From Bacteroidia bacterium (GTDB lineage Bacteria; Bacteroidota; Bacteroidia; B-17B0; Aurantibacillaceae), in NCBI GenBank assembly GCA_026415195.1, contig JAOAHO010000003.1, positions 1 to 64,000 of the forward strand: 64,000 nucleotides of DNA. Direction: 5' to 3'. Position 1 is the first letter of the stretch. The number at the start of each line of letters is the position of its first letter. The position numbers and the translations under genes were made by a program. The notes beneath the pieces were generated by a model. That model saw only the letters and a list, made by a program, of their open reading frames with translations. It was not told the DNA's origin and did not search any database. Shown in pieces: positions 1,025-36,255 of this stretch.

Positions 1025-4000
1025 TTACTCTTTAAGTAACTTGAAAGAATGTTTTTCAATGGAACCGTCTTCCATAATTCTGTAGGTTTGGATTAAATAC
1101 AATCCCTGAGGTAGACCTGCTGCAGGAATACTGTGATGGCCGGGAGGCAAGGTTCCTGAAGAGATCACAGTACCTTTAATATCAATGAATTCATAACGTA
1201 CAAAAGCGCCGTTCATAATAAAAAACTGATCTTTTGCAGGGTTGGGATAAACCAATACGGATGATTTTTGGATAAGCTCATGACTTTTAACGGAGAGTAA
1301 CGAAGAGTCACATTTTTGCCAGATGAGAATTCTGGAAGACCAGGGGGCGACGGTGACGGAGTTAATCACCACATTGCTGTCGGTGTCTAAATACACATAA
1401 CAGGGATTTAGGTTAAATGAAGCCGGATTATCCGATGGATTCAGAAAGATGGGATAATAAAAACTCAGCGGTTTGACAGAAGAGGTATCAATTTTTTCAA
1501 ACTTCAGGAATTTTAGCCAAACCGTATCATTTTTTTGAACGTAGATTCTGAACATGTTGTTATATTGGAAGAGCCGAGGTTTGTAATAGATTTCAAACGT
1601 ATCGGGTTGAAGTCCTTTGAAGGCAGGAAAAACGAAGTAATCTCTTCCACCGAGTTGGTCGCCGGTTTTGGGATGCTTCATGTTGAAATTCATAAAGCCG
1701 TCATATTCTTTCTTTTTGGCAGCAGCAAGGACGAAAGAAATTTTATAGACGTCGTGAGGTGAAAGTGTAGAGGAATAAAGGGGGTTAAGGGTGGTGGTCA
1801 GAAATCCGGCACCCCAGGATGGAGGATTGTTGGTGCAGGTAATACGGACAGCCAATCCGCCAAGGGGGGAAGCAGCAACGGTAGCCACCTGGGCGCCGCC
1901 AAAGGCGCTGATAGGTAAGGGATTGGTGGTGAAGGAAGAATTATTTATTAAATTGGAAAGGATAATGTTAGAGTTGTTCCAGTATTTATGCTTGGCAAAT
2001 TGCCCCCAGTAACTGATGGGAGATGCTTCGTATGGAGTGTTGTTTTTAATTCCATAAAAACCGGTAACGAGCATGGTTCCATTACCATAACGGTATATAT
2101 AATGTGCTCCACGGTTAGGGAGAAAATATCTGTTTTTATTCATCACCCAAAGGGTGTCTTTGAAATTATCGTTGGAAGCATCGTTCACCATGACAGCCCC
2201 GTCGGCCTGGGTCAGATGAAAGAATAAATTTTCTTCCACCCTGCAAGAATCAATTTTGGAATTACTATCACCTGAGGAAACATAATCGATTTCCTTCATG
2301 GTAGCGCCATAGAGTGTGTTTTTCTTACTGTAGATTTTTTTGATAAAAGTTCCGCCGGGGAAATTGTGATGATTAATATCTGCACCTACTGATGTATTGC
2401 TCTCAAAAGTTGCCGTATGAGCATTTACATCTGAATAAAGCCCGTAACCATTCCCACCATAGTGTGTAAGCGTAAAACGGTAGTCGGCTTGCCAGGTCTT
2501 GTTGCGATTGTGTTTACCCCAAATATCTTTATATAAAATATTGTTTTTAATGATGCTTCCATTTAAAAAACTATAAGCTTTAATACCTCCACAGTCAGAA
2601 AAATCAGTGCAATAATTGGTAATATAGTTTTTTTCAATTATAAATGGAATTTTTCCTGGATATTGGTTATTCCAGTTCGTTTCGGTCATATAAAAATTTG
2701 AAATTACAATTCCTCCCTGGCTTACACTGTCTATTCTGTTTTTTCTGACGATTACACTATCAACATTTCTGCCAAGATTCATGGAGTAATCTTCCTGTGT
2801 GTGTGTGTTAGTAAGGGTATTGTAAAGTGGCTCTGTTCTCCACCGGTTTTCCCAACCTGTATATTTAATAAGGTTATTTTCAATTAATACCCTTTTAGTC
2901 ATGGCCGCCGGATTTCCCTCATATCCGGCTACCATTCTGCCTCCAACCGCAATAGCAAGATATTCATTAAATAAAAACTTATTACCTGTTATTTTCATAT
3001 CTTCTCCGAGGAATGTCCATAATGCTCTGAAAAATCTTATGAAATTACAATTCGAAATTTCAACATGTTTCACCCCGGCCATGCGAATAGCTTCCTGACC
3101 ATGTTCAAACTGAAGATTTTGAATATTAACTCTTTGAATTGGATTGGAAGGCATGGCAGTGTAACCCTGGGAATGGGTGAGTATAAAAATTCTCGGCTCA
3201 TTTGCACTTGGATTAAGTTGGGAAAATTGAATTTCATAATCGGCTTTATTAAAGCTGGTGACGTTTTGCGGAAGGAGGAAATATAAAGTATCGGTGTTTT
3301 TGTCGAAATACCATTCTCCGGGTTTGTCAAGGAATTCTCTTTTGTTTTCCAGGTAAAAACGATTTCCTCTCATGGGGCCGGCATGAAAATCGCCGGGGCT
3401 GACGCGCAGTAAATTCGATTGTTTGTCGAGCACATGGGATATCCCCCACGAATAACCGCTCATGGTTGCCCAAATGACGGCACCCTGGCAATGTGCATTG
3501 GGAATGGAATTAAGGGCCGAAGAATAAAGGGAATCGATGGTATTGGCAGCGGTTTTGGATTGCTCTACCAAAAGCGTGGAATCGTTGGGAAAACGGGCCA
3601 GCACCATGGGTTTTCCTTTGTAAAACATGCGCGTAACCACAAAATTGTTGTGCGGAAGAAAAGGATTACTGATTTTGATAAGGTTTCCCTGCTGGATAAC
3701 ATTACCTGAAGGTGTTTGGTCAAGCCGGAGCGATGATTTTAAGACAGGCAGCGGAGCAGAGGAAGGGCCGTAATCACGCAAGGTAATATATTGTGTTCCT
3801 GAAGATGTAAAAACGGTGCCATTGAAAGATACTCCCATGGATACCAAAGTGGGTGTGATACGCGCGAATCTGAACGTGTCTCCCCTGAGGAAGTAAATGG
3901 TATCTCCACGTTGCAATTTTTTTCCGTTGAACGTATTTCCGCTTAAAAGGGACTGCAGGCGGTCTGTGGATTTCCATGGGGAAGACGGGGAAATACCCGT

Positions 4001-4105
4001 ATTGTTGTCGTTACCCCCGGAAGAGGAAAAATACCATGAGGTGGGTTGGGTAAATAACGAGATGCAAGAAGTTATTAAAAGAAATGAAAAAAAGTTTTTT
4101 CTCAT
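1025..4105 (-). CDS. Secreted right-handed beta-helix protein with T9SS type A sorting domain
   Basis: 1026 residues. An N-terminal signal peptide (MRKNFFSFLLITSCISLF) is followed by WYFSSSGGNDNNTG, typical of the start of pectate-lyase-like parallel beta-helix proteins. The middle (about 330-620) is rich in short Asn/Ile turns such as IENNLIKYTG and IIKNNILY, as in beta-helix coils. A carbohydrate-binding-like beta region lies around 730-880. The last ~80 residues (VLVYPNPAKDQFFI to KHSFKLLKE) form a T9SS type A C-terminal domain, so export through the outer membrane is expected. No catalytic residues can be assigned; a polysaccharide-acting enzyme or an adhesin are both possible. Its ATG overlaps the stop of the upstream lectin gene by 4 bp (ATGA), so the two are co-translated. 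Confidence 0.85.
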   Translation of the reverse strand: MRKNFFSFLLITSCISLFTQPTSWYFSSSGGNDNNTGISPSSPWKSTDRLQSLLSGNTFNGKKLQRGDTIYFLRGDTFRFARITPTLVSMGVSFNGTVFTSSGTQYITLRDYGPSSAPLPVLKSSLRLDQTPSGNVIQQGNLIKISNPFLPHNNFVVTRMFYKGKPMVLARFPNDSTLLVEQSKTAANTIDSLYSSALNSIPNAHCQGAVIWATMSGYSWGISHVLDKQSNLLRVSPGDFHAGPMRGNRFYLENKREFLDKPGEWYFDKNTDTLYFLLPQNVTSFNKADYEIQFSQLNPSANEPRIFILTHSQGYTAMPSNPIQRVNIQNLQFEHGQEAIRMAGVKHVEISNCNFIRFFRALWTFLGEDMKITGNKFLFNEYLAIAVGGRMVAGYEGNPAAMTKRVLIENNLIKYTGWENRWRTEPLYNTLTNTHTQEDYSMNLGRNVDSVIVRKNRIDSVSQGGIVISNFYMTETNWNNQYPGKIPFIIEKNYITNYCTDFSDCGGIKAYSFLNGSIIKNNILYKDIWGKHNRNKTWQADYRFTLTHYGGNGYGLYSDVNAHTATFESNTSVGADINHHNFPGGTFIKKIYSKKNTLYGATMKEIDYVSSGDSNSKIDSCRVEENLFFHLTQADGAVMVNDASNDNFKDTLWVMNKNRYFLPNRGAHYIYRYGNGTMLVTGFYGIKNNTPYEASPISYWGQFAKHKYWNNSNIILSNLINNSSFTTNPLPISAFGGAQVATVAASPLGGLAVRITCTNNPPSWGAGFLTTTLNPLYSSTLSPHDVYKISFVLAAAKKKEYDGFMNFNMKHPKTGDQLGGRDYFVFPAFKGLQPDTFEIYYKPRLFQYNNMFRIYVQKNDTVWLKFLKFEKIDTSSVKPLSFYYPIFLNPSDNPASFNLNPCYVYLDTDSNVVINSVTVAPWSSRILIWQKCDSSLLSVKSHELIQKSSVLVYPNPAKDQFFIMNGAFVRYEFIDIKGTVISSGTLPPGHHSIPAAGLPQGLYLIQTYRIMEDGSIEKHSFKLLKE

Positions 4106-4938
4106 ATTATTGATATTTTATTGAATGAAAAATTCCCGTTATTATCTATGATTTTAATAAGCAAGATACCCTGTTCAAGATTTTCAGCAGGAATAAAAAT
4201 TTTGCCTTGATTCAATTCATTTTCTGTATGATAAATAAGCTTACCGTCAATTCCATAAATCTCAACAAATTTAATGTCGGAAGCTTGGTTTATGATGATA
4301 TTATTATTTTCTAAATGAACAGGATATTTGGAATAAGATTTAACGGATTTGTTTAAGCCGGTTGTTCCTGAAAGTTCCACTATAAAGTACAGGGAATTAT
4401 TAGTACTAATGTCATTCCATTCACCGGCATTTCCGTAGGGCCAAGACGTGAGAGCAAGCCCAAGGCCATCCTGATTTCCGGCATCATCAGGTTCACCTCC
4501 GTTTACGCTTCCCCAGGCATTAAATAAACCATTTACGGGATTGCCGCTTAAATAATTTCCTTGCCAGAATTGAATACCGCTAAGGTTTCCATCCCCGTCC
4601 CAAATCCATTTGCCTTCTGTTTGAATGTCGTTTCCTCCAATCCATATATAAGATGCCGAGCCACCATCGGGAGCGGTGGTACTGGCAGTATTAATTCCCG
4701 CTTTGTTTTTGGCATAATGAAACAGGGAATCATTTTCCTGCTTACTCATGACTTCTGCAAGTTTTCCTCCTCTTTGAACAGCACAAGCTGCCGCTGCGGT
4801 CCAGGTCATGTTCACCTTAATGATTTCATAGCTCTTATTGTTCACTGTGAATGAGTAGATTGAATTTGAGGGGATGTTACATTGAGAATAAAGCTTTAAT
4901 GCTAATAATAGGATTGTAGCTAAAAGTATTTTTTTCAT
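4102..4938 (-). CDS. C-type lectin-domain protein with T9SS type A sorting domain
   Basis: 278 residues with a signal peptide (MKKILLATILLLALKLYSQ). Residues ~25-190 look like a C-type lectin fold: the opening MTWTAAAACAVQRGGKLAEV, a central YIWIGGNDIQTEGKWIWDGD, a GGEPDD segment at the position of the EPN/QPD ligand loop, and GEWNDIS matching the WND motif. These are the usual calcium/sugar-binding positions, so carbohydrate binding is plausible. The C-terminal ~75 residues resemble a T9SS type A sorting domain (VEIYGIDGKLIYHTEN, LEQGILLIKI). It is the first gene of a two-gene unit with the beta-helix protein, suggesting a surface pair acting on glycans. Confidence 0.85.
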   Translation of the reverse strand: MKKILLATILLLALKLYSQCNIPSNSIYSFTVNNKSYEIIKVNMTWTAAAACAVQRGGKLAEVMSKQENDSLFHYAKNKAGINTASTTAPDGGSASYIWIGGNDIQTEGKWIWDGDGNLSGIQFWQGNYLSGNPVNGLFNAWGSVNGGEPDDAGNQDGLGLALTSWPYGNAGEWNDISTNNSLYFIVELSGTTGLNKSVKSYSKYPVHLENNNIIINQASDIKFVEIYGIDGKLIYHTENELNQGKIFIPAENLEQGILLIKIIDNNGNFSFNKISII

Positions 4939-30082: not shown

Positions 30083-31088
30083 ATGAATAAAAAATACAAA
30101 CAACTCAGTCGTGAACAAAGATACCAAATTCACGCGTTACTCAAAGAAGGATATCTTCAAAAAGATATTGCCCAAAATTTGGGTGTCCACCCCTCCACCA
30201 TATGTCGGGAACTTAAACGAAATGTGGGAAAAAGGGGTAGAAGAGCCGGAGAATACCTTCCCGAACGTGCTCACTGCAAAGCCGTTCTTAGACATAAAAC
30301 TAAGCCCAAAAAGATAAAGTTTACTAAAGAAATGAAAGACATGGTGAGTTGGTATTTAAAAGAGGAAAGAGGGAGCCCGGAATTGATCAGCCATGCTGTT
30401 GATCAAGTGGAAGTAAGCCATGAAACAATATATCGTTGGATATGGGAATGTAAGCATTCGTTCAGCCGTTCTTGCAGGCCATACAAAAATTTATACCGAT
30501 ACCTGAGGCATGGAAAAAGAAAACGCAAAAGAGGCTGTAGTTATGATCGTCGTGGGAATACTCCCGATAGGGTTTTTATAGACCAAAGGCCTGTAGCGGC
30601 ATCAAAACGCAGCCGTATTGTATTGGGGACTGGGAAGTAGATTTAATGATGGGAAAAAATCACCAAGGCGCCATATTGGTAATGACCGACAGAACTTCTT
30701 TACACACTCGCCTTGTCAAACTTCCTTCCAAAGATACCCAAGTGGTAGAAAAGGGTATAGAAACTGTTTTAGAAGACCTGAAAAACGTGATGAAGCATCA
30801 TACTTTAACTTTCGATAATGATAAGGCCTTTGCTCTTCATCAACAAATTGCTCGCAAATATGGGGTTAAAACTTATTTTACTCGTCCATATTGCAGCCAG
30901 GATAAGGGAACTATTGAAAATAGAATAGGAACATTAAGAATGTTTATACCAAAAAAACAAACCTTAACTTTGTTACGGAAAAAATGTTAAACACTATACA
31001 AAACAAAATTAATAATCGTCCGGTAAGAAAATTTAACTATCTTACCGCTAACCAAATGCTACTCAAAAAAAATGCACTTATTACTTGA
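30083..31088 (+). pseudogene. IS30-family transposase with two frameshifts
   Basis: The N-terminal part (30083-30640, 185 residues) has the IS30 helix-turn-helix (YLQKDIAQNLGVHPSTICRE). A tandem repeat GTATT-GTATT at 30615-30624 shifts the frame; removing one unit restores SRIGDWEVDLMMGKN, with the first catalytic Asp. The second part (to 30990) carries TLTFDNDKAFALH and GTIENRIGTLRMF, the other Asp and the Glu. A run of seven A at 30951-30957 then shifts the frame again; one more A would restore NNRPVRKFNYLTANQML to the stop at 31088. All DDE residues exist but are in different frames, so the copy is probably dead. Confidence 0.9.
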
Positions 31089-32183: not shown

Positions 32184-32198
32184 AATTATTTGATTGTT

Positions 32199-33284
32199 AT
32201 GAAAGGTACATTGAATATTGCACGTGTAGCCGGCATACCGGTTAAAATCCACTGGACATTCCTGTTATTGATTGCTTATATTTTCTTTTCAAACTATCTG
32301 TCGGGTAAAGCATCCGATCAGATCATCTGGACACTATTATTTATCCTCAGCATATTTCTAACCGTTTTTCTTCATGAACTGGGACATGCGGCCATGGCAC
32401 GTGTTTTTGGCATCCGCACGCACGATATCACCATCCTTCCCATCGGAGGGGTGGCTCGGCTTTCCGAAATACCCACCAAGCCCTTTGAGGAAATCCTGGT
32501 GTCGTTGGCCGGCCCCATGGTTAATGTGATTTTGTCTATTGTTGTGTATATTCTATATGATATCCGATGGGATAAAATTATTTTGATTAAAGCCGGAGAA
32601 AGTATTTCAGGTGAAAATTTTTTTATTTATTACTTTTTTGTCAATCTTTGGCTTGCCGTATTTAATCTTATTCCGGGCTTTCCGATGGACGGGGGAAGGG
32701 TTTTGCGGGCACTGCTGTCCTACCGGATGGAAAGATATAAGGCCACACGAATTGCCGCCTATATCGGTCAGGCCATTGCGGTAGTATTTATCTTTTTCGG
32801 ATTTTTTTCCAATCCATTTTTAATTTTCATAGGTTTATTTATCATTTTGGGTGCCGAAAGCGAAGCAGAATTCACCCGTTCGGATTATTTGCTCAGCCGG
32901 GTACCGGTAAAATCCATTGTAATGAAAAACTACGGCATGCTTCAAATTACCGATCCGATTTCGGTGGCTGTAGAAAAAATATTGGAAAGCGAAAATAAAA
33001 ATTTTGTGGTTTTTGATAATAACCGCCCTGTGGGAACCCTAAGCAGGGAGGATATTATTTTTGGCCTTGAAAAATTTGGAAAAGACATCACCGTTGAATC
33101 CGTTACAGAAAAAAATCCCTTTAAGATTACCCATAACATGAAGTTGAATGAAGTTTACAAGAATTTTCATCAGGGGGCGCAAGGTTATATACTTGTTTAT
33201 GATGAGCACGGGCATTTCGAGGGTGTATTGGATTTGGAAAATATTCTGGAATATATGGCCTTTAAAAATGTCCTTCATTCATGA
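32199..33284 (+). CDS. Site-2-type M50 metalloprotease with CBS domains
   Basis: 361 residues from the ATG at 32199. Six hydrophobic segments lie in the first ~230 residues. The zinc motif HELGH ([11 protein letters not shown]) is at ~58 and the third ligand is in [18 protein letters not shown] near 162, both intact. Two CBS repeats follow at ~235-355 ([38 protein letters not shown]-like). This is the SpoIVFB-like, CBS-regulated branch, which cuts substrates inside the membrane and can respond to nucleotides. The stop overlaps the ATPase start by 4 bp (ATGA), so the two are translationally coupled. Confidence 0.92.
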
Positions 33285-35863
33285 ACTGGCATTTCTTAAC
33301 CATAGAAGAAACCGAAAAGATTCTGAATACTTCTCCGCAAGGGTTAAAAGCCAATGAAGCAAGGGAACGCCTGCGGTTGCACGGTGAAAATGTCATTGAG
33401 GACAAAAGAAAAAAATCGCCGATAGCTATTTTACTCGGACAGTTCAAAGATGTAATCATCCTTATCCTTTTCGGAGCCGCTGTAATTTCGGGAATTATCG
33501 GAGATGTAACTGATACGATCATCATACTGGTAATTGTTTTTTTAAATGCTCTGGTTGGATTTATCCAGGAATACCGTGCAGAAAAAGCCATGGAAGCATT
33601 AAAAAAACTCACATCACCGGTCGCTTATGTATTCAGGGATGGGCAAACGGTAAAAACGGATGCTCGATTTTTGGTGCCCGGTGACCTCATTTCTCTTGAA
33701 GCGGGCCATATTATACTTGCCGATGTACGCTTTTTAAAAACTTATGGATTGAAAGTGGACGAATCGATGCTGACGGGGGAGTCGCACAACGTGGAAAAAA
33801 AAGAAGAAAATCTTACACCGGGAAATGAATATGCATTAGGAGACATGCATAACATGGGCTTTAAGGGAACTCATGTAACCTTCGGCCGTGCACTTGCCTA
33901 TGTGGTGCAGACCGGAAAAAATACCGAGATTGGTAAGATTGCCGGAATGCTGGGCAGGGACGAGAGCGCTACTCCGTTGCAAAAGCGATTGTCGGCCTTC
34001 GGCAAACGCCTCTCGGCGGTGGTTATTCTGATTTGTGCACTGATTTTCTTTATGGGATGGATTAGGGGTGAAAACCCCGTTACCATGTTGCTGACATCAA
34101 TATCCCTTGCCGTGGCAGCCATTCCCGAGGCCTTGCCTGCCATGGTAACCATTACGCTGGCACTGGGGGCCCGAAAAATGGTAAAGCAGCAGGTGATCAT
34201 ACGCAAGCTTTCGGCAGTTGAAGCCCTGGGTTCTGCCACCTACATTTGTTCAGATAAAACGGGAACCCTGACTGAAAATAAAATGAAAGTGGAAGAGTTG
34301 GTGTCGTTGTATGACGGTACGCGTCATGATTTGCCGGATCATCAACCATTGTTGTTTTGTATGGCCCTGAACAATGACGTAATGAAAGGGGAAGGCGGAG
34401 AATGGTTGGGCGAGGCCACAGAAGTGGCGCTGGCACATTATGCCCTGCAACATTCTTATGATAAACAAAATCTTGAAAACACATTTAAAAGAATAGCGGA
34501 AATTCCCTTTGACTCGGTAAGGAAGTGCATGACAACGATTCATAAAGATGGAAATCACTATTGGATCATTACCAAAGGAGCAGCCGAGAGGATAAAGGAA
34601 ATATCCGTATTGGAAAACGAGAAAGATAAAAATCATTTTGATGAGGTAGCAAACCGCCTTGCGGAAAAAGGATACAGGGTATTGGCTTTCGGAATAAAAA
34701 AAATCCGGTCATTACCTGAATCGGTTAGCCCTGAAACCATTGAACATGGCCTGTTATGCATCGGAATGGCGGGTATGTGGGATCCTCCGCGCCCCGAAGC
34801 CAAAGAGGCCATTAAAGAATGTCTGGAAGCCGGTATAACACCGGTCATGATCACCGGCGATCATCGAATAACCGCAACGGCCATTGCCAAACAGATTGGA
34901 ATCTACAGGCCGGAAACCGATGAAGCGCTTACCGGTAAAGAACTGGAACAATTGACCGAAGCCGAGTTAAGAAAAAAAGTGCGCAATATTAAGGTATATG
35001 CCAGGGTAAATCCTGAACAAAAACTGAAAATTGTGGATGCCCTGCAGGCAGAAGGGGAATTCGTGGCCATGACCGGCGACGGTGTGAATGATGCACCGGC
35101 ACTTAAGGTCTCCAACATCGGCATTTCCATGGGGATAAACGGGACGGAAGTGGCGAAGGAGGCCTCGCACATGGTGCTGCTGGATGATAATTTTGCAAGT
35201 ATTGTTAGGGCCATACGCAGCGGAAGGGTGATTTTTGACAACATCGTGAAGTTTATAAAATATACCATGACCAGTAATTTTGGTGAAATCATTTCCATTT
35301 TGCTGGCTCCCTTTTTCCTTTTACCCATACCGCTCCAGCCCATTCATATCCTATGGATTAACCTTATCACCGACGGATTGCCCGGATTGGCGCTGGCCAT
35401 GGAACCTGAAGAAAAAAATGTGATGAAGCGCAGGCCCCGCAAACCGAATGAAAATATTTTCAATAAATCCTTTACGTTTCATGTCCTTTTTTTCGGTTTC
35501 CTGATGGGCATCGTAACGTTAATCATGCAGGCCCTGGCCATACATCACTACCATGCCCACTGGCAAACGATGGCATTCAGCGTGCTGTGTTTCAGCCAGT
35601 TGGGGCACGTTTTAGCGATAAGATCCGAAGACAGATCGCTATTTGACATCGGAATTTTCAGTAACCTGCCTATGCTTGGGGCAGTATTAATTTCGGTGGT
35701 ACTTCAGTTGGCCATCATTTATGTCCCTTTCTTTAATAATCTGTTTCATACCCGCCCCCTTAGCGCCGATGAACTGGGAATTACTTTATTGTTTTCCACT
35801 TTGGTTTTCTGGGCCGTTGAAGCAGAAAAATGGTTTAAAAGAAAAAGTAACAGGGAACATTAG
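33281..35863 (+). CDS. P-type cation ATPase, Ca2+ (P2A) type
   Basis: 860 residues. The N-terminal cation-ATPase domain begins [20 protein letters not shown]. The actuator motif TGES is at ~166, the ion-binding helix reads [20 protein letters not shown] (the IPEAL motif of Ca/Mn pumps), the phosphorylation motif DKTGTLT is at ~324, and [11 protein letters not shown] is at ~600. Ten transmembrane segments are expected, and the C-terminal cation-ATPase domain has [19 protein letters not shown]. All catalytic residues are intact. It is likely a calcium or manganese exporter in the inner membrane. It is coupled to the M50 protease upstream and converges with the channel-like gene. Confidence 0.93.
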
Positions 35864-35898: not shown

Positions 35899-36255
35899 TT
35901 AGTCGTTTTCGTTTCCTTGTTCAACGTGCAGAATATGTAATAATCTGTGAATAATGGGTGCAAAGAATACGGCTGTAATACTCAAAAATGCAACTCCGCT
36001 GTAAAGCGCATAAAAAGAAGAAAAAATTTTAGCATTGGTTGTCCTGAGTTCCGCAACCGGCCCCATACCTGTTAATATCATGCAAGACATATGAAAACTG
36101 TCAATCCATGAAAGTTCTCCGAAATAATGATAACCTAATGTGCCTGCAATAACTGAGATTGTCGCCAGTCCAAATGCAAACATTCCATATCTGCCTACCC
36201 TTATCAGGAATTTGGGGAAAGAGATAATTTTATGTTTCCGGCTTTCTAATTTCAT
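35899..36255 (-). CDS. Two-TM potassium-channel-like membrane protein with TGMGP filter
   Basis: 118 residues. TM1 is MFAFGLATISVIAGTLGYHYF, then a pore-loop-like segment (LSWIDSFHMSCMILTGMGPV) and TM2 (KIFSSFYALYSGVAFLSITA). Layout and the context DSF-x-MS-x-MxLT, then T-x-x-AKIFSSFYALYSG, match the pore module of two-TM K+ channels, but the filter TVGYG/F is replaced by TGMGP. Proteins with this TGMGP pattern occur in other bacteria to my knowledge and are annotated as channels without proof. Potassium conduction is doubtful. A -7-like TAATTTTG (36279-36272) lies upstream. Confidence 0.7.
   Translation of the reverse strand: MKLESRKHKIISFPKFLIRVGRYGMFAFGLATISVIAGTLGYHYFGELSWIDSFHMSCMILTGMGPVAELRTTNAKIFSSFYALYSGVAFLSITAVFFAPIIHRLLHILHVEQGNEND

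Follow-up and report, generated by a model that had tools for sequence, protein, structure and literature searches.

Among described channels, NaK (2ahy and its variants, including the CNG mimic 4zbm) resembles most closely the small membrane protein analyzed here: both consist of TM1, pore helix, filter and TM2 with little else, and the two are homologous by profile. The NaK filter reads TVGDG, whereas the family of the present protein, termed here the GMGP family, carries GMGPV; a loop one residue short, as is usual in this family, is found in the best-scoring CNG-mimicking NaK mutants. To our knowledge, the PxxHRxxH end described below is not known from NaK. Unusual filters have been reported in three further systems. 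NaKTs of Tsukamurella paurometabola (5CBF-5CBH) is a two-TM bacterial channel whose filter, LPMGNGPLSP, also combines Met, Gly and Pro; it is reported to be non-selective, activated by Ca2+ and able to bind Ca2+ in the filter, and its authors came across no comparable filter in any other channel (PMC5052707). By the motif quoted there, NaKTs retains GxG and the canonical length, in contrast to the GMGP family. NirBac1.1 and NirBac1.2 are reported to be non-selective and to pass several monovalent cations, and the function of NirBac2.1 (TTGTD) was not tested by its authors (PMC4607889). These are likewise bacterial K+-channel relatives with non-canonical filters, but they are KirBac members with a cytoplasmic Kir domain, whereas the GMGP protein has 118 aa, a TM2 helix running to residue 116 and no Kir domain; NirBac filters also vary even among close relatives, unlike the near-invariant GMGP. 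Finally, TbIRK of Trypanosoma brucei, a K+-channel relative that lacks the GYG signature and belongs to the inward-rectifier family, has the filter GGYVG and is reported to select K+ over Na+ by a factor above 7 (PMC5429665).

The window, i.e. the whole stretch of 64,000 nucleotides that was analyzed, encodes on its reverse strand a protein in which an earlier note had recognized a potassium-channel fold with TGMGP in place of the TVGYG selectivity filter. Its features are listed below, with residue counts given for the 149 family members.

33281..35863, forward strand: P-type cation ATPase gene (Cation_ATPase_N/C, E1-E2_ATPase), convergent with the channel gene
35899..36255, reverse strand: putative GMGP-filter two-TM/P-loop channel gene, 118 aa from an ATG start, based on the ORF, its homologues and the model
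36121..36219, reverse strand: TM1, residues 13-45 in the AlphaFold2 model; G38 and G41 each in 148 of 149 (one gap), Y42 of low entropy
36073..36108, reverse strand: pore helix, residues 50-61 in the AlphaFold2 model; D52 in 141 and L61 in 149 of 149
36055..36072, reverse strand: filter segment T62-G63-M64-G65-P66-V67; 141 of 149 distinct members carry GMGP
35908..36039, reverse strand: TM2 and cytoplasmic extension, residues 73-116; F78 in 148, G87 in 148, F90 in 145 and P100 in 149 of 149
35926..35958, reverse strand: signature P100-x-x-H103-R104-x-x-H107-x-x-H110 at the presumed cytoplasmic end of TM2, from column counts

On the strand of the channel gene, a coaE-like gene (by eye) lies upstream of it at a distance of 170 bp. 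The convergence with the P-type ATPase gene that had been noted is confirmed, the two stop codons being 35 bp apart. Elsewhere in the window, an IS30-like transposase (by eye) spanning 30083-30990 is broken into two ORFs (30083-30640 and 30646-30990), and a gene for a site-2 protease (M50) with CBS domains (32190-33284) overlaps the start of the ATPase gene (33281-35863). The window protein matched Pfam PF07885 (Ion_trans_2) at 14.4 bits (E 0.036), below the gathering cut-off of 22.5 bits; a second Pfam match was weaker, sub-threshold and chance-like, and no NCBIfam model matched. Ion_trans_2 matches were found in 56 of the 84 members of the family alignment at E<=1 (best 3.4e-4), and scattered Pfam matches among members (SieB, 2TM, Antitox_RHH) were set aside as weak. 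Searched against its own genome, the protein matched itself alone at E<=0.001. This genome (93% complete) has no Ion_trans_2 match above the cut-off, the channel gene being the sole match at E<=1, and no match to TrkH; Kup is present. A K+ transport set of this kind, with one Kup, is unusual if the assembly is complete enough.

An AlphaFold2 monomer model built with 84 sequences (pLDDT 90.2, pTM 0.77) shows TM1, pore helix and TM2 with the filter between the helices, and has a low-confidence N-terminus (mean pLDDT 55 for residues 1-10). When the model was compared to known structures with VIA-align, NaK variants occupied the first 32 of 50 rows, as assigned by title and with the generically titled 6dz1 and 6v8y taken as NaK; the best, 4zbm_B, was aligned over 94 residues with Z 11.9 and rmsd 4.6 Å. 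MthK followed the NaK variants, and GsuK, K2P1, HCN4, Slo2.2 and SthK ranked lower. Foldseek also listed NaK variants first, with nothing at E<=0.001 (best 5e-3, prob 1.00). As a Z of about 12 can be reached by helical bundles through their common arrangement alone, the claim of homology rests on sequence profiles. The profile alignment held 84 of 87 non-redundant sequences, with L128-L130 omitted; L101 and L119 had been dropped earlier as truncated. Searched against the PDB, this profile gave a best E of 1.8e-6, and the top ten of the 52 sequences matched at E<=1 were NaK variants. The top five chains were CNG mimics of NaK (filters e.g. TVGETP, TVGNTP, TVGDTP), wild-type NaK 2ahy was matched at E 9.6e-5, and NaKTs entries were not named among the 52. 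In hhalign comparisons, the family matched canonical two-TM GYGD channels (5 sequences) with 97.1% probability (E 5.6e-11) and, from TM1 to the start of TM2, the Bacteroidota RCK-type two-TM channels L125-L127 (3 sequences) with 97.3% (E 2.2e-11). The latter differ from the GMGP proteins in having a TrkA-N/RCK-like cytoplasmic part (by eye), in keeping T-V/I-G and in lying outside the GMGP family on the tree; their filters, TVGFAE, TVGFTE and TIGFSE, lack the second glycine of GYG and form another non-canonical group. Combined, these results make it almost certain that the protein has the TM1-pore helix-filter-TM2 fold of the tetrameric P-loop cation channel superfamily (two-TM branch), and the view that its two TMs and pore-helix context are channel-like is borne out by the model helices and by the NaK matches in profile and fold.

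The alignments to K+ channels placed G63-M64-G65-P66-V67 on T-V-G-Y-G, which we take to be T75-G79 of KcsA. In this register, Gly stands for the S4 threonine, Met for Val, Pro for Tyr and Val for the last Gly, with the first filter Gly unchanged. The filter is thus not TVGYG, as proposed, but the equivalent segment is GMGPV, so that TGMGP (residues 62-66, DNA 36058-36072) begins one residue early. The pore helix at 50-61 of the model agrees with the GMGPV register, and two printed PDB alignments, both to CNG mimics, run gapless through the filter. The stretch D52-K76 measures 25 residues in 137 of 149 members, 26 in 11 and 27 in one, and the equivalent stretch of the canonical two-TM alignment (D44-K69) measures 26. 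Comparison with NaK/CNG-type filters gives a gapless fit and, in 137/149, a short loop, yet with T and V replaced by G and M. An alternative register, pairing the leading Gly of GMGP with the leading Gly of GYG, would make the filter resemble that of TRPV1, GMGD; it was rejected as it needs a two-residue shift and both HMMER and hhalign chose otherwise.

With a score cut of E<=1.1e-14 as its boundary, the family set comprises 149 distinct proteins from 152 loci, window protein included. A species-genome scan used six peptide patterns, including MILTGMGP, that favour GMGP; the best 80 of at least 483 encoding stretches were used, and these homologues are 56-75% identical and belong to Bacteroidota by title except L042 (titled uncultured bacterium). 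The family was present at the same cut in 38 of 296 genomes drawn evenly across the phylum, own genome included, and 21 more had weak matches alone; 8 of 23 weaker matches were read and turned out to be five small GYGD channels (L120-L124) and the three RCK-type channels. Among 60 close relatives, 35 carry the family, and 20 of these 35 also encode a weakly matching protein of 337-368 aa, taken by its length for an RCK-type channel. Sampling outside Bacteroidota is sparse, the species-genome scan having been limited to one protein. Two plasmids, one from Thioclava and one from Gloeothece, each carry a member annotated as hypothetical protein, and two records of Proteus mirabilis, one of them fetched, match the family. 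A 1101-codon open frame in G339, considered as a fusion protein, was discarded as a GC-rich frame with no recognized domain (by eye), and internal-stop flags in G304, G334 and G348 did not correspond to breaks, the re-read ORFs being uninterrupted over 113 aa.

Viral contigs gave 37 pattern matches, of which two also carry the family. In L132, the GMGP channel gene (2500-2859) is open over 119 codons and lies alongside thymidylate synthase; in L133, the gene (3867-4234) is frameshifted in the TM1 region (by eye) and lies alongside a member of a phage ATP-dependent protease family. One L132 protein is related over 19% of its length to Melnitz phages, and both contigs look like phage DNA. In the named phage collection, neither the window protein nor the L132 copy had a match, and no PHROG was found for the phage copy, which on the tree groups with L087 and L089 (SH-aLRT 99). 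The GMGP channels apparently constitute a conserved, undescribed family found across several bacterial groups and in two virus contigs: in a literature coverage without bioRxiv preprints and most subscription papers, no paper joined GMGP with potassium channel and selectivity filter, and no description of such a channel family was recognized.

GMGP occupies the aligned residues 63-66 in 141/149 members (G63 in 146, M64 in 145, G65 in 148 and P66 in 145), with column entropies of 0.06-0.23 bits compared to a mean of 1.69, and residue 67 is Val in 133. As 80 of the 149 members came from the scan that used MILTGMGP, the overall frequency is favoured, and the pattern-free count is 58 of 66. By source, the motif was found in 80/80 members from the pattern scan, 34/38 from phylum genomes, 23/25 from close relatives, 1/3 from plasmid records, both viral copies and the window protein. 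The eight exceptions read GVGP (L101), GMGL (L109), GLGI (L118), VMGA (L119), GEGP (L128), GQPV (L130, from Proteus), AMGP (L138) and EMGP (L148). The family alignment, which the earlier note had suggested as a check on whether TGMGP is invariant, therefore supports near-invariance of GMGP and not of the leading residue: at position 62, 102 of the 149 have T, and the others have G (32), S (10) or A (5).

This conservation bears on the proposal that the window protein is a decayed K+ channel, which the earlier note would have accepted if homologues had a normal GYG filter. Remote homologues of this kind do exist at the level of the superfamily (L120-L124); within the family, neither GYG nor the K+ signature TVGYG/TVGFG occurs in any of the 149 members. 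Two copies with altered filters, L101 and L119, are N-terminally truncated and could speak for decay. However, the median dN/dS is 0.16 over 24 family pairs with dS 0.1-1.2, values lie between 0.06 and 0.20 in 12 pairs with dS under 0.7, and two distant pairs reach 0.45 and 0.61; judged by these substitution rates, the family is under purifying selection. On a tree holding 47 of the 149 members, a single branch (SH-aLRT 100) separates the 47 family rows from 8 GYG/GF channels, a split to be treated with care as long branches meet there; they also leave the placement of L102, L118, L127, L128, L129 and L130 unsure. On filter counts, selection and tree taken together, decay of a K+ channel is refuted for the family, and as an explanation we regard it as extremely improbable.

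A second signature lies at the end of TM2, which is presumed, from the known channels, to be cytoplasmic. P100 is found in 149, H103 in 142, R104 in 144, H107 in 145 and H110 in 115 of the 149 members, and HRxxH (H103/R104/H107) is complete in 141, including 59 of the 66 found without motif pattern. The pH sensor of KcsA is situated at the cytoplasmic end of TM2, and the His/Arg cluster may, tentatively, act as a gate. HRxxH is incomplete in 8 members (L030, L099, L102, L114, L128, L129, L155 and L162), and a His/Arg gate would consequently not be universal. Near the N-terminus, residue 4 is Glu in 126/149; given the low confidence of the model there, that E4 touches the His cluster is conjecture.

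Gene neighbourhoods were read from mechanically chosen ORFs (minimum length 80 codons), covering up to four genes on each side in 121 loci and three in 19; the lists are unreliable in the GC-rich L144. The link to the ATPase implied by the convergent arrangement did not hold up across the family: counting the window locus, P-type ATPases occur within four genes in 6/121 loci, in varied order and subtype (by eye), and in 0/19 further loci does one lie within three genes. The ATPase was rejected as a conserved partner. Among the 114 loci that extend 700 bp or more upstream of the channel, 15 have DUF1003 as the directly preceding gene (L002, L004, L005, L008, L011, L014, L023, L024, L030, L031, L036, L057, L060, L062 and L065), with an ATGA overlap in 13, and DUF1003 is further off in L017, L035 and L095; its identity in L004 is given by a Pfam E of 1.2e-42. 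It was not found among the three neighbours a side in the 19 further loci, and the window genome has no DUF1003 match. Of the 38 genomes that carry the family, 18 have DUF1003, compared to 83 of the 258 that lack it (Fisher p 0.07). From genomes without the family, 20 DUF1003 loci were fetched, and in the 17 that were readable no channel-like gene adjoins DUF1003 (by eye); in one of the 17, DUF1003 follows a Kup gene. Being clade-limited and weakly co-occurring, DUF1003 was not retained as an operon partner; it may modulate the channel in one clade without being needed. An ABC-type cluster with scattered positions in 15 loci was taken as chance. MscS-type genes lie directly downstream of the channel in two different phyla (L128:5363-6283 and L100:5311-6381), and in L146 an MscL-like gene (by eye) stands before it; these loci were too few to be used as partner evidence.

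We infer the assembly, conduction, selectivity and gating of the GMGP protein as follows, and lean towards a cation channel of four identical subunits whose K+ selectivity is weak or absent and whose gate lies where TM2 ends. Four copies of the 118-aa protein would assemble around a pore in which the carbonyls of G63, M64 and G65 would retain the inner (S3/S4-like) part of the filter, while P66 and V67, together with a loop usually one residue short, would do away with the outer K+ sites (S1/S2), a situation resembling CNG-type filters. With these sites removed, the pore would pass cations with little or no K+ selectivity, and a ring of H103/R104/H107/H110 at the cytoplasmic mouth, perhaps with E4, would provide a pH- or metal-sensitive gate. 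That the protein conducts cations is probable; that its pore is non-selective we favour slightly. Against this reading, a Pro at the Tyr78 position together with a Gly at the S4 threonine could give a dead filter, and the CNG-like short loop has 12 exceptions in 149, 11 of canonical length and one longer. A further reserve comes from TbIRK, in which the odd filter GGYVG is reported still to select K+ (PMC5429665); it offers a precedent for a GMGP channel in which the carbonyls of G63, M64 and G65 give enough K+ sites for K+ selectivity. The window genome, with Kup and neither TrkH nor an Ion_trans_2 match over the cut-off, leaves room for such a channel, but the presence of a putative RCK-type channel in 20 of 35 family-carrying relatives argues against a simple replacement. 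Moreover, the changes from Y78 to Pro and from G79 to Val would remove the S1/S2 carbonyl geometry, and the five best PDB matches have CNG-type non-selective filters; we therefore consider K+ selectivity unlikely.

Slightly less weight still is given to a non-conducting sensor or regulatory subunit that has kept the P-loop fold and perhaps acts with DUF1003. The HRxxH end is strongly conserved alongside the filter, and the overlapping upstream DUF1003 genes would provide a partner; the conservation of the filter, however, suggests that the pore itself is used, and DUF1003 is missing from the matches in the window genome, co-occurs weakly and has no channel-like neighbour in the 17 loci outside the family. 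Conduction of one particular other ion (divalent metal, H+ or ammonium), with the His ring in its path or as a metal-controlled gate, would fit the filter Met present in 145/149 members, the presence towards the end of TM2 of His at 103 and 107, and often also at 110, and the Met/Pro-containing filter of NaKTs, which is reported to bind Ca2+ (PMC5052707). It is not accompanied by a conserved metal-homeostasis context, the P-type ATPases in 6/121 loci being of different subtypes (by eye), and we regard it as improbable.

For the cell, the favoured cation channel might serve as a cation leak or release pathway, which is a guess. It is conceivable, although we hold it to be rather doubtful, that GMGP defines a distinct, evolutionarily fixed filter class that prefers ions of its own and is combined with a cytoplasmic gate, ringed by His/Arg and controlled by pH or metal, in a family of about 118 residues that extends from Bacteroidota to Pseudomonadota, Cyanobacteriota and phages. 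The odd filters that we found published for two-TM bacterial channels are isolated (NaKTs) or variable between relatives (NirBac), whereas GMGP is near-fixed across a large family. A protein that is little more than a pore and carries a near-fixed non-GYG filter lets nature's own experiment show cleanly what filter chemistry is workable, and its size is convenient for structure and flux assays.
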